This document shows positions 8,443 through 48,947 of a stretch of 64,000 nt of DNA, piece after piece. The notes under the pieces were generated by a model. The model was not told the origin of the DNA, ran no database searches, and worked only from the letters and a program-made list of their open reading frames with translations. The DNA lies in the NCBI GenBank assembly GCA_963457665.1, contig OY735216.1:47467825-47531824 (forward strand), given 5' to 3'. The stretch's first letter is position 1. Each line of letters begins with the position of its first letter. Source of the DNA: Thysanoteuthis rhombus (taxonomy: Eukaryota; Mollusca; Cephalopoda; Oegopsida; Thysanoteuthidae). The translations under genes were made by a program, and so were the position numbers.

Positions 8443-9246
8443 TCACCAGGGTCTCCACAAAGGAAGTTCTTTGATTGGTTCAGGTGAACTGTGTCTTTTG
8501 AACGGTTGTGTGTAAAAACCGGCTAATGTGGCTGAAGTAGGTTTGGCTTCACTGATACTGCCAACGTACACTGGAACTGTGGATACATAGCAACCGTTCG
8601 AAGCATTACTGTCCGACACCAGGGCCTTCATGTGAACGATAGATGGAGATGTGATCGTGTTTGGAGGGGTTGTGATAGCTGTGAGGGAATTAACTGGGGT
8701 GTTGATCACATGTGTGGACGGAGAGCTGGTACTGGCGGGTGAAGAGTTGATGGCTGTGTAAGATACGGTTAAGGTCTTGTAGGGAGATTCAGGAACCGCT
8801 GCCATCATTAAAGAACTCTCTGACTGTTTGGAAGCAATAGGAAGAACTATGTGCGTCGTATTGTCTCTCAAAGGAGACGTCTGAGGTGGTTGATTCTGGC
8901 GGATGTGTTCAGGTGTTTGTGGGGTGGTAGGGATCTGTTGATGAGTGGTGATCTGTTGATGGGCTGACGTTGGGGTAGGTGGGGTCTGAGTGTTGGTGGG
9001 TGCGACGATGGGTACGGTGGGGGACCCGCTGCTCACCCGGACACACTTGCTGATGTGGTCGGTGAGGCGAGATCGGGCCTCTTCACTGTTCATATAGCGC
9101 ATCACCTCAACATCAAGGGGAACCCGGTATTTGCCCCCCAGAGAGTCGGTGGTGATATTCACTTGTTGCTGCTGATGGAGAAAACGAAGGTATTTCACGG
9201 TCATCTCCAGAATATCAACTTTTTCCAATTTTGAAAACTGTTCGCC
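8443..9246 (-). other. HES: HES coding exon 3 (helix 2, Orange domain, C-terminal WRPW)
   Basis: 804 nt including the TGA stop at 8445-8443. The acceptor is a pyrimidine-rich run ending CCAG before GGCGAACAG (Gly-Glu-Gln). Helix 2, the Orange domain, the Pro/Thr/Gln-rich linker and WRPW (8446-8457) lie in this one exon, so the intron that many HES genes carry after helix 2 is absent. Confidence 0.97.
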
Positions 9247-11856
9247 CTGGAAGGAGAAGAAGAAGGAAAGGAACATTAGTAATTTTAAAAATCATGAAAA
9301 TCAAATATTATACATAAAGCGATATTTTATAATGAAAAGAGTTCATGTGTGTGTATATCTAAATGGCTGGAAACCCTATATCTTTTCTAGGCGTTCGTTT
9401 GTTTCGTGATCACAGGCGCGTATCTAATACGGGAAATGAAAGAAAAAGATTTATATCTGGATGAAGGAATCTTAGGAATATACCCCTTAAAAACTCAAAA
9501 TGATCCAAGAATTAAACCGTTGATTCACAAAAAAAAAAAAAAAATTCTGATACCCATGTGTTATTTGTCAGATCTGATGTTACGCAATAGAAAAAAAACG
9601 GTTAAATTTAAATTCAATTAAGTCAACTATCTGGCACTAAATAATTTCTGATTATCATTCATCTTCGAATCAAAAGATGAATGTAAATAAGTGACAAAAG
9701 ATCTATAGCTTACTATATTCACGAATACGGCAAATAAAAATTCTATTGAAATAGCACTAGTTTATGCCCAATAAGAAAAAACGTTGAAAATTTGAAACTA
9801 GTCAACGAAGTAAAAGAGGAAGTATTGTAAATATTAATTAAAAAAATTATACTAGTTAAAATATAGAAATGAAAAGAAGAGTTGACTCAAGCAGTCGCTG
9901 GGGCAACAACTTGTTCAATGGTAAAAGACAACCCCTCCCTTTCCCTCGTTGCCTTACCGCCCGTTGGTAAGTATAAGTATATATACCTAAAATATATGTA
10001 AGCTTCAAAAAGCTTCACAGACCCCACCTATATCTCCTCTCCCTCACTTACGTAGTCCCCACCCCTCTGTCAGTCCGTGAGTCTTGTTCGCGTCTCAGCG
10101 ACATTTTCCCACGGAACCTAATGTACGGGTGACCCTGGAGGTCAGGCTTTACGGGGGCAGGGTTGGGAAGAGACGGGCAGAGGAATTAGGGAAAGCTGCA
10201 GGAGCAGGAAGAGAAAGAAAGGGGAAAGGAGTAACAGACAGACTCTGTGTCTGTGTGGTTGCTTTATTAAGACTACCGCCTCTTTCCTCCTCACCCTCGA
10301 TTTCTTCTCTTTTCTCTCTCTTTTTTTAATTTTTTATTTATTACGCCGCTCTAATCTCTAAAAACCCCTCATCTCCTCCCCTCTCACCCGTCTCATTTAC
10401 ATCCTTCCAACACGTGGGAAAATGCTGGCTTTTGTGTACACACACTGAGGCAAAGAACTCTCCCATCTCTTCCCCCTTCGCTTGATTCTCGCATTTGACA
10501 AGAAGGGCGAAGGAAAGAGCGTACAATACATAACATAGGAATGTCTAAACTCTTCATAAGTCAACAAAACAAATTAACTTTTCTCAGATTCCCACACACA
10601 CATGAACCCATTTCATTATACATATTTTCAGTTCATGTGAATCTGTATTTTTGACATATTTTAACCATCTTATATATATATTCAACAGATAACAAGTTAA
10701 TTTTATACAGATTCAACATATCTTAATCATGTTTTATAGATTTAAACATATTTCAATCATGTAATACGGATTCATATCTTTTGATCATGTTGTAACATGT
10801 TACATGAATTAAACAAGTCATTATCATATTATAGACTCAAAATCGATTCAGGATTGTTATTATCATTTCATACCTAGAGGCAACACGAACAGAAAATCAT
10901 ATTATTCGTGATGCTGACATTGTAACCTCTCTTAACGATACTGTCAATACTGTCACAGGGTGATTAAACGAAGATACATTGAAAGTTGATTGATACTTAC
11001 ATCTTTTTTGAGGGCTTTGAGCACCAGGGTCTTCAATTCAGATAAACAATCGTTAATACGTGTTCGTCTTCGTTTTTCCATCATTAATTTATTAATCTGA
11101 AATAACGAAAAAAAAAGGCAATAAGTAATTTGTTGTTTCAAAATTTTACCTCGATCACTCATTTAAAAACATAATTCATGCAATTCTAGAGAGAAAACGG
11201 ACACTACATGAGAGATAATTGAATTACGATTCCAAGTTGCTAAAATGAGGAAGTAGCATTGAAATTCCAACAAAAATAAATGCTGTTACTCTCTGTTTTT
11301 CTTTATCTACTGCACGTGATTGGTTCTGTTCAAGATCAATGTTGAAACCAAGCAACTCATTTCGAAGCAAAACAGTTGACACTGACGGTTATGATTACGT
11401 TCTTACATGTCAAATATTCACATTGACAGATATGAGAAATCTATGTTGTCGATTGGGTTAGGGAAGATTAGTTTGTCACACACTCAAGTTAGATAAACAA
11501 TGAGAATGTTCGCGTTCAGTTGAACAGAATGCAAAACATCTCAGTATTCAATAAAAACAAATACAGATTTATGATAATTTCTGTAGCTGATTATTATCAT
11601 AAGTTATGTATCGACTCAAGAGAAGCTCCCCAGCATTCTGCCTAAGATCAGAGTGTAGTATACGTGTGTGAGTGTATACTGATATTGATATATCTTCTGA
11701 CAGCTTAAACACACCAAAGAGTGAATGATTTAGTTGACAAATATAATGACATAAAGATCAATATATTAAAACAAAACAAAAACTTACTTTTCTGTGTGTT
11801 GGTGTTTTGATGGGACCGGCATTAGAAGCCACAGTATTTGTAACGCTGTCCAGCAT
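8443..11856 (-). CDS. HES: HES-family bHLH-Orange transcriptional repressor, three coding exons
   Basis: Coding exons are 11856-11788, 11096-11001 and 9246-8443, giving 322 residues. Both introns have GTAAGT-type donors and pyrimidine-AG acceptors and fall between codons (phase 0). Residues 24-55 hold the basic region and helix 1 (MEKRRRTRIND, then LSELKTLVLKALKKD). Residues 59-82 are helix 2 (FSKLEKVDILEMTVKYL). About 94-125 is the Orange domain (RVPLDVEVMRYMNSEEARSRL to HISKCV). A Pro/Thr/Gln-rich linker follows, and the protein ends exactly in WRPW, the Groucho/TLE-binding tetrapeptide. By family knowledge it is a nuclear DNA-binding repressor acting downstream of Notch. The first ATG in exon 1 has A at -3. 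The usual HES basic-region proline is Leu here (NKLMMEKRRR). HEY is excluded because it ends in YRPW and has Gly at that site. The family call is very secure; the paralogue is not. Confidence 0.97.
10106..10113 (-). promoter_or_regulatory. CSL/Su(H) site in HES intron 2
   Basis: CGTGGGAA on the minus strand, an exact high-affinity CSL octamer, in a non-repetitive GC-rich part of intron 2. Confidence 0.45.
10411..10420 (+). promoter_or_regulatory. Overlapping E-box and CSL site in HES intron 2
   Basis: CACGTGGGAA combines an E-box (CACGTG, 10411-10416) with a high-affinity CSL octamer (CGTGGGAA, 10413-10420), about 300 bp from the CSL site at 10106. Occupancy by HES/bHLH factors and CSL would be mutually exclusive. 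Confidence 0.45.
11001..11096 (-). other. HES: HES coding exon 2 (basic region and helix 1)
   Basis: 96 nt, 32 codons, from INKLMM to ALKKD. Acceptor TTATTTCAG|ATT and donor GAT|GTAAGTATC. The exon carries the whole basic region and helix 1 and ends in the loop, so the two helices are split across an intron. Confidence 0.95.
11097..11787 (-). other. HES intron 1
   Basis: A 691-bp AT-rich intron with GTAAGT at the 5' end and TTATTTCAG at the 3' end. I see no coding sequence or long simple repeat in it. A phase-0 intron just before the basic region is a common position in HES genes. Confidence 0.85.
11788..11856 (-). other. HES: HES coding exon 1
   Basis: Codes for 23 residues beginning MLDSVTNTVASN and ending THRK just before the basic region. 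The donor reads AAA|GTAAGT. It is too short to stand out as an open frame; it was found by looking upstream of exon 2 for an ATG with a matching phase. The N-terminus is short, as is usual for HES proteins. The exon also carries the 5' UTR up to the predicted cap near 12112. Confidence 0.88.
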
Positions 11857-36179: not shown

Positions 36180-36506
36180 GACTTGTTTCAGTGGATAAGT
36201 CCATTGTTTCAAATAGCCAGTACAAGACATTTCCCTCCGAAAAATAGTAATCTTTAGGTGGAAGAGTCCATTGTTGCAGACAGAAGAACGGAAAAAATCA
36301 CGCTATTCGTAATAAAAGTAGATTAATTGATCCATAAGAAAAATAAATCACGGATGTATTTAACTACTATGAGATCACATTTAAAAGAAGAAACCCTACT
36401 GACCTCAAGCGGGAGAATCCATTGTTTTAAATATCTGGTGAAAGATATTCTCACCAGTATACTTGGTACCTTTATTTACAATATTTATTTAATTTCCATA
36501 CTTTTA
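36180..36506 (+). repeat. Repeat family I, carrying the U2-headed insertion
   Basis: AGGTGGAAGAGTCCATTGTT near 36256 matches 2003. Similar sequence resumes after 36864 (ATGTGGAAGGGTACATAGTA), consistent with insertion of the next element. Confidence 0.45.
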
Positions 36507-36864
36507 ACCTTTTTCTGGCCCTGTCTTCGGGATCAAAGTGTAGTATCTGTTCCACGGCATAGACCGAGGAGTCTGTACTGACACTTGCCCGTTGAATGGG
36601 CCGGAGATTGTGTGGAAGGTATCAAAGACTGGGTGCGCCGGTGCAAACGTTGGCCAATGAGGTTACACTGAGGCTGCGTTTGCTAAGCGCATTGGGAAGC
36701 CTTTGGACTCGTCCTTAGGCTCTCCCATTATTACTCGGCCCAGCTTTCGCAGGTAACTGCGTCGGCTGGAGCCATTTTTTGGGAGTAAGGTACTACTATT
36801 TCTTCCCACGTTAAGCCCGACCTTGTGTCACATATTGCTGCGGTGGGACAGTGATTAAATAGTT
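36507..36864 (+). mobile_element. U2 snRNA-headed SINE-like element, copy 1
   Basis: AAGTGTAGTATCTGTTC (36536-36552) is a 17-nt exact match to the U2 snRNA branch-site-pairing region. Diverged U2 5' sequence precedes it and U2-like CATAGACCGAGGA follows. A non-U2 body of about 290 bp then runs to CCCACGTTAAGCCCGACCTT...GTGATTAAATAG. The same body follows a U2-like head at 43867-44182 (minus), and its 3' end alone occurs at 48858-48947. ACCTTT at both ends (36507, 36865) may be a target-site duplication. Not a functional U2 gene: the Sm region and 3' stem-loops are missing. Confidence 0.7.
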
Positions 36865-37099
36865 ACCTTTATGTGGAAGGGTACATAGTAATAGAAAACG
36901 ACTCAGTTCAATATGTAAGTAAAACTTACATGATTTCATTTAATGAATATGTTTACCGTTCCAGCTTATTACACTGCACCACGCATTTCCCGGGTAGTGG
37001 GTGCTATTTTCTAGCTGTTTATATGTAGAGGAGTAAAATGGCGTTTTTTTCCCTTTGAAATTTGCTTTTGTGACAAGGTCAGGGATATTCATTTGTAAT

Positions 37100-43720: not shown

Positions 43721-43866
43721 TATGGAGGTATTTAGTTATTGGACGTAAGAGTTAATCTTAGTTATCCCCATATATAAAACGCAACGCTTATTCATAAGAA
43801 TATATTTTTAGTGTGTGTTTGAGTTACACTTTTCTGAGAGTGCACAGATTCGACACTCTGATCCGT

Positions 43867-44182
43867 ATTTATTCGCTTCCCAACAAGAACAAGATGTGAC
43901 ACAAAGTCGGTTTGATGTGGGGGAAAGCTTTAAAAATTGCTCCAGTCCCCGCAACTGATGTTGCGAGGGCGTCAGGGCGCTAAGAGAGTGCTGCCCCGGA
44001 GCTTGCAGATCTCTGAGGCTGGGCAGAGTTATTTTTTAGGCCTCATAACGAATCCTAGGCCTCTTGCACCTTACATTACCGAACGTCAACAGCCACTATA
44101 CAGCACAAGCGCAAAGCTACCAAAGTATATATTGCTGACAGATATTACGCTCTGATCCTGAAAGAAGTTTCGCAGAGCGACT
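43867..44182 (-). mobile_element. U2 snRNA-headed SINE-like element, copy 2
   Basis: Minus strand begins GTCGCTCTGCG and has GGATCAGAGCGTAATATCTG at the U2 branch-site-pairing position. The body aligns with copy 1: GCCTAGGATTCGTTATGAGG, TAACTCTGCCCAGC, GACTGGAGCAATTTTT, and a 3' end with CCGACTTTGTGTCACAT and AATAAAT. More diverged in the head than copy 1, but it starts at the second base of U2. Confidence 0.65.
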
Positions 44183-48857: not shown

Positions 48858-48947
48858 ACATTTTTTGGGCGGTTGACTACTATTTCTTCCCACGTTAAGC
48901 CCGACCTTGTGTCACATATTGCTATGGTGGGACAGTGATTAAATAGA
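48858..48947 (+). mobile_element. U2-headed SINE-like element, 5'-truncated copy 3
   Basis: ACATTTTTTGGG then GACTACTATTTCTTCCCACG through GACAGTGATTAAATAG is almost identical to 36770-36862, and homology stops abruptly upstream. 5' truncation with an intact 3' end is the signature of LINE-mediated insertion. Confidence 0.75.

Follow-up and report, generated by a model that had tools for sequence, protein, structure and literature searches.

SINEs headed by snRNA sequence have reportedly been described by Kojima, in 2015, under the name SINEU. As the promoters of U1, U2 and U4 genes lie upstream of the gene, it is a puzzle how snRNA-headed SINEs come to be transcribed. The SINEU class is named in a Repbase table (excerpt of PMC5753468) and is tied to avian and crocodilian genomes in the excerpted part of a second paper (PMC8010984). 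Utopia and Keno are LINEs that occupy one fixed position within U2 genes, with the U2 sequence after the insert starting at nt 39, and crocodilian Utopia copies outside U2 often carry short U2-like junctions (both from the quoted passages of PMC4640811). Dada-U1 DNA transposons, as the excerpt of PMC3706591 has it, insert in U1 genes at the site GCGAAT, with proposed duplications of 6 bp (6-7 bp for Dada). In LINE-1/U6 chimeras the 5' end of a retroposon is fused to an snRNA in sense orientation (passages quoted from PMC13174262). Within the openly licensed literature we found no report of an snRNA-derived SINE in molluscs, nor, among the titles and abstract openings listed, of a SINE in U1 genes.

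The locus considered here lies in a window of 64 kb (the whole stretch of DNA that was analysed) from a cephalopod host, in which a preliminary description had proposed three copies of a mobile, SINE-like family with a U2 head and a non-U2 body. Contig C45 of the genome holds a cluster of reading frames with up to 90% identity to a reflectin segment of a bobtail squid, and we regard the host as a coleoid, probably from the squid-cuttlefish branch. A scan of the genome (2.73 Gb in 514 contigs) reveals that the family is larger, with about 1,750 head matches genome-wide, and that copies of the element reside at the starts of U1 genes; the latter is the central fact of this analysis and lay beyond the view of the preliminary description. 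The features of the window copies are as follows (TSD, target-site duplication).

36498..36862, plus strand: copy 1, full length, young family, subfamily A, from sibling alignment; start ATACTTTTAACC at 36498 and end TTAAATAG at 36862, set by comparison with siblings
36498..36509, plus strand: eroded 5' end ATACTTTTAACC, aligning in a 23-copy alignment with subfamily B ATACTTACCTGGCACC/CACAGG, which is host U1 nt 1-15/1-18
36513..36552, plus strand: segment like U2 nt ~6-46
36531-36552, plus strand: GATCAAAGTGTAGTATCTGTTC, host U2 nt 25-46, 22/22 bases identical
36634..36685, plus strand: segment like U4 nt 6-60 (5' half of U4), score 33, reached by 0/300 shuffles
36768..36782, plus strand: Sm-site-like motif GGAGCCATTTTTTGG, from a 14-sequence alignment; function putative
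36802..36862, plus strand: conserved 3' end CTTCCCAC...GTGGGACAGTGATTAAATAG, from sibling alignments
36467..36475, plus strand: possible 5' TSD copy TACCTTTAT, weak, 22 nt from copy 1
36864..36872, plus strand: possible 3' TSD copy TACCTTTAT, weak
43866..44181, minus strand: copy 2, older U2-U4-core family; U2-like from 44181, AGCTTTGCGC from 44118, tail end at 43866
43843..43865, minus strand: 3' flank of copy 2, CGGATCAGAGTGTCGAATCTGTG, U2-like
48859..48946, plus strand: copy 3, 3' end only, 93% over 88 bp

Copy 1, placed by the preliminary description at 36507-36864, is confirmed there, with its ends reset by the sibling comparison, and its U2 match is real and longer than the 17 nt first claimed, running for 22 of 22 bases along host U2 nt 25-46. 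It shares 91-97% identity with the other 41 places listed genome-wide; of the U1 head only ATACTT is left in it, and its candidate TSD has a score (9) that was matched by 22 of 1,190 mismatched flank pairs. A second copy had been claimed on the other strand at 43867-44182. Minus-strand 44162-43866 does align to the family (score 101, against a maximum of 43 among 200 plain shuffles), but copy 2 is a diverged member of the older U2-U4-core family, with 65-86% identity to the other 50 places listed. The third copy, described as a 3' end alone at 48858-48947, holds: 48859-48946 is the last 88 bp of the element, 93% identical. Elsewhere in the window, an ORF of 277 codons lies at 8443-9276 on the minus strand; at its beginning it resembles the final part of a helix-loop-helix domain (E 0.00099; 19.3 bits, slightly short of the Pfam threshold of 20.7), and its sole match among solved structures is HES-1 (E 0.011). 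It is possibly an exon of a Hairy/HES-like gene.

Genome-wide, a 40-mer from the head occurs at 1,748 places (853+895) and a 40-mer from the tail at 1,887 places (955+932), both with up to three mismatches, these being separate counts in which heads and tails were not paired; the reversed patterns of both 40-mers, used as controls, occur at none. The near-equal numbers fit heads and tails travelling together, and tails are in no large excess over heads, as they might be were there copies with the body and without the U2 head. The young consensus is 366 bp long and its longest open stretch has 54 codons. The proposal of a mobile, SINE-like, snRNA-headed family is thus supported: the element is short and dispersed, has no open stretch above 54 codons, carries TSDs, and shows heads and tails in similar numbers. 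No strict A or B box pattern was found in the young consensus, an absence compatible with a borrowed promoter, and a tRNA search of the 64-kb window gave none. A single tail pattern, used to look for a partner LINE, identified none; it did yield 30 places where the tail follows a different upstream sequence, which may be truncated copies.

The head of the element aligns with the host U2 gene, and the 22 of 22 match of GATCAAAGTGTAGTATCTGTTC recurs in every one of the 30 U2 loci fetched. Host U2 and the element alike read GATCAAAGTG with three A's, one more than human U2 has there. The U2 match score was reached by none of 500 and none of 1000 dinucleotide shuffles, and in single young copies the match stood out in four of four (0/300 shuffles reaching the score in each). 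A "U2 head" is present but is an incomplete account of the 5' end: siblings start with U1 nt 1-15 or 1-18, and the U2 sequence comes after. In the 23-copy alignment, subfamily B copies open with (AT)ACTTACCTGGCACC or (AT)ACTTACCTGGCACAGG, which is cut short in some of them; the ACTTACCTGGCACC form is host U1 nt 1-15, and the ACTTACCTGGCACAGG form (for example in loci L028 and L063) is host U1 nt 1-18, 18 of 18 bases including the host's CACAGG. Human U1 diverges after GGCA, so the match of the element is to the host form of U1. In subfamily A, which includes the window copy, the U1 end is eroded and reads ATACTTTTAACC. The U1 match of the young consensus was reached by 0/500 and 0/1000 shuffles; with looser alignment scoring 5% of 200 shuffles reached it, against 0/200 for U2 and U4, and the U1 origin of the head is firm because of the insertions at U1 genes considered below. 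That the element contains U1 and U2 pieces is certain. Full-length U2 homology in the body was also considered and is rejected, as only nt ~6-46 stand out; extra pieces of U1, U2 or U4 elsewhere in the body are likewise rejected, the second-best alignments being at shuffle level (p 0.27 or more).

The "non-U2 body" of the preliminary description is partly U4-like. Host U4 nt 6-60 aligns to the young consensus with a score of 41, which none of 1000 shuffles reached, and in four single young copies the scores were reached by 0, 0, 0 and 2 of 300 shuffles. When L028 was scanned alone against 4,227 Rfam families, U4 was the sole listing (E 0.017, 19.9 bits, below the gathering score of 46); a scan of four loci placed U4 at the same position in five of five copies (E 0.3-2.9), beside unrelated weak hits, and a scan of the 64-kb window at gathering thresholds returned no RNA family. 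A U4 piece in the element is likely. All three pieces, U1, U2 and U4, are in sense, represent the 5' end of the respective gene, and follow one another in the order U1-U2-U4. As a separate observation, L016 contains at 351-500 an extended, imperfect inverted repeat; it gives a microRNA-like hairpin hit short of the gathering score, and is perhaps a small inverted-repeat transposon.

Further downstream, the element carries a motif resembling an Sm site, GGAGCCATTTTTTGG in the young family and GGAGCAATTTTTGA in the old, of which GGAG and most of the T run are kept between the two families in the 14-sequence alignment. The predicted fold of one U1-resident young copy is far better than that of shuffles (z -8.6; 0/100), and the by-eye consensus of the older family gives a predicted z of -4.7. 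For the 3' part, 11 predicted pairs, of which four show a double change in one sequence or more, are no more than suggestive of a conserved fold.

Five copies of the element lie at the start of U1 genes, three of them at L063, L098 and L099 and two at the diverged U1s L091 and L021. At L063, L098 and L099 the 3' end of the element abuts U1 nt 1, that is, at 3 of 59 good U1 gene starts, a lower bound given that the junction pattern was exact whereas the 59 starts were found with up to three mismatches. The element also abuts U1 nt 1 at L091, where the U1 is 91.5% identical to the others, and at L021 it is followed by U1 from nt 3 (87.7% identical). Among the U1 loci read directly, 4 of 28 carry the element junction (L063, L098, L099 and L091). 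On contigs C46 and C133, U1 genes occur every ~9.5 kb, separate from the element-bearing clusters of C47.

Comparison of the 150 bp upstream of 59 element copies with 24 clean U1 promoters gave scores, out of 150, of 150 for L098, 144 for L063, 135 for L081 and 126 for L099, and the upstream sequences of L063, L098 and L099 correspond to three different clean U1 promoter types. L081 has the U1 promoter ahead of it but no U1 downstream; L021 scores only 20 against the 24 promoters, L091 fits none of them (it falls outside the top 14, hence at most 11), and the remaining copies score 17 or less. The order U1 promoter, U1 head with element, whole U1 gene is thus clear in three loci (L063, L098 and L099). 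From this order it follows that the U1 head is duplicated target: the duplication at the U1-resident copies measures ~15-18 bp from U1 nt 1, and the sequence just before the U1 differs among the junctions (TAAATAC, TAGCC, TAGA). Were some 1,750 insertions spread at random over 2.73 Gb, the chance of a hit on a given base in any of 59 genes would be about 4 in 100,000; the residents of U1 genes known here number 5 or 6 of ~1,750 copies. Insertion at U1 is seen directly.

Dispersed copies carry target-site duplications as well, a feature that the preliminary description had left to be looked for. Duplications of at least 12 bp flank 23 of 35 dispersed copies, against 5 of 1,190 mismatched flank pairs, and the other 12 show no clear duplication. 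Across the analysis, L001-L008 were left out as duplicates, L090 and L093 because they overlap L021 and L092 respectively, and, in one comparison, L119 and L120, which have no recognisable tail. In 13 dispersed B copies the duplications resemble U1 nt 1-9, with a mean longest match of 4.46 against 2.94 and none of 10,000 controls reaching it; in 10 subfamily A copies no such U1-like preference was found (1,254 of 10,000 controls reach the value). These 13 B and 10 A copies have a TSD score of at least 9; L009, a simple repeat, and copies lying in U1 genes or in tandem are not among them, and L089 was kept although its duplication is not U1-like. The A and B labels in this comparison were assigned by hand; a rough labelling rule, used in another comparison, put L076 and one of the L097 copies, at the least, in the wrong subfamily. 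Seven subfamily A loci (L074, L075, L076, L084, L085, L086 and L118) share a GATATC- or GAAATC-like sequence directly after TTAAATAG, and on account of this shared sequence target preference may differ between the subfamilies.

Exact tail-to-U1-head junctions number nine, three at the U1 genes and the other six within tandemly repeated elements, two of these six in a single trimer. These tandems, dimers and the one trimer, fit insertion of the element into its own U1 head. The U1-resident copies at L091, L098 and L099 and one copy of the dispersed pair L097 are 0.3-0.6% apart, a difference that points to recent activity.

The older family was examined through an alignment of 13 monomers from nine loci and the window, and its middle differs from that of the young family. 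Its U4-like part opens with AGCTTTGCGC, which is host U4 nt 1-10. The U4 score was reached by 0/1000 shuffles for a by-eye consensus and by 2/1000 for a strict majority consensus; single monomers gave 0/300 in 2 of 13, 9-12/300 in four, and no significance in 7 of 13, and an Rfam scan of five older-family loci gave no U4 hit with an E of 2 or below. Four monomers with a visible 5' part were tested for U2 there, of which three match U2 nt 2-43 or 2-45 (0/300 shuffles each); the four include window copy 2, whose signals taken alone are weak (U2 over nt 25-44 only, reached by 2/300 shuffles, and a U4 score reached by 105/300). L125 has no U2-like 5' part in the alignment. After the tail, 12 of 13 monomers are followed by U2-like sequence, in three of them due to the next tandem unit, and this 3' flank starts near U2 nt 23-25. 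Beyond the U2-like flank, the older copies of L124, L127 and L129 and that of the window (43800-43842) are followed by CA/TA-rich sequence. Neither the young nor the older family adjoins U2 in the 30 U2 loci fetched, and neither adjoins U4 in 6 U4 loci, one of which has an older relative ~1 kb away. Contig C36 (L038-L058) holds a large array of U2 genes, many ~1.95 kb apart, in which the U2 differs slightly (171.9 bits) from the other U2s listed.

We consider it probable that the element is a SINE spread by retroposition, which has no recognised promoter of its own and acquires promoters anew through insertion in snRNA genes (first U4, then U2, then U1). A copy lodged just within such a gene would be expressed from the upstream promoter of that gene, as presumably happens at U1; the element RNA would then begin with the 5' end of the snRNA, and the duplicated target would become a permanent head. 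All pieces would be in sense and 5'-terminal because insertion takes place just inside the start of the snRNA gene, with the host promoter starting transcription at snRNA +1. Each layer would mark one in a succession of host genes, from the innermost, U4 nt 1-60, through U2 nt 1-46 to U1 nt 1-15/18, the outermost and latest. In the present round, insertion at the U1 start would duplicate U1 nt ~1-15/18 and leave the element behind the U1 promoter with the U1 coding sequence downstream, with mobilisation putatively through target-primed reverse transcription driven by a LINE. U2-like sequence flanking older copies at both ends hints at the U2 step; the U4 step of promoter capture, the order of the captures (U4, then U2, then U1) and any role for the Sm-like site are what we infer. 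We are evenly divided over an extended form of this proposal: a promoterless SINE living by serial promoter capture, settling each time at a fixed site of another snRNA gene, whose RNA would resemble an snRNA (the pairing parts of U1 and U2, a U4 stem-loop, an Sm-like site) and may use snRNP processing or import, and whose heads would be a fossil record of host genes.

Sense, 5'-terminal snRNA pieces would equally be produced by template switching, in which, as cDNA synthesis ends, the reverse transcriptase jumps from the element RNA to snRNAs and pastes on the 5' pieces of U1, U2 and U4, the copies in U1 genes being secondary; template switching or RNA ligation has been proposed for the LINE-1/U6 chimeras (again in the quoted part of PMC13174262). 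We regard this as unlikely, as the U1 piece is the duplication at the U1-resident copies, dispersed B copies favour U1-like targets, and U2-like sequence flanks the older copies on both sides. Still less likely is recombination, by which U1-headed elements or circles would have recombined with U1 genes through the 15-18 bp common to head and U1, with no targeted insertion: the tandem dimers and trimer are in keeping with it, yet the U1 residents involve three promoter types, several subfamilies and differing junctions, and the U1-like preference is found at dispersed B sites too. A functional composite snRNA gene, giving an snRNA-like RNA with an Sm site and leaving many retropseudogenes without any parasite, would account for the strong predicted fold (young copy and older by-eye consensus alike) and for the Sm-like motif kept between families, but is highly improbable given that several subfamilies each lie in U1 genes and that the young and old middles differ.

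If promoter capture by insertion into snRNA genes is correct, the copies at U1 starts offer a direct and testable answer to the puzzle of how snRNA-headed SINEs are transcribed, namely a promoter borrowed by landing in the gene; snRNA genes would then be a renewable launch pad for SINEs, and the heads a layered record of past target genes.

Among known systems, SINEU is the closest class by definition, rather than by sequence comparison: both are SINEs with a head derived from an snRNA gene, and the element has the traits of that type, being snRNA-headed, short, non-coding and dispersed, with TSDs. Points that may set it apart are the pieces of three snRNAs layered in one element, its cephalopod host, and its copies at U1 starts. 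SINEs derived from tRNA, 5S or 7SL have an internal Pol III promoter, whereas the element has no strict A or B box. Like Utopia and Keno it is a retroposon in snRNA genes, but it encodes no reverse transcriptase (no open stretch above 54 codons), and where the 3' flank of those LINEs, in the account quoted above, begins at U2 nt 39, that of the older family begins near U2 nt 23-25 and that of the young family at U1 nt 1. Dada-U1, too, lies in U1 genes, but as a DNA transposon and at a different site; in place of the short duplications proposed for it in the excerpt, the element duplicates ~15-18 bp at the U1 5' end. Finally, the LINE-1/U6 chimeras, as characterised in the passages quoted, are individual insertions with full-length U6, whereas the element is a family that passes on a 5' piece.
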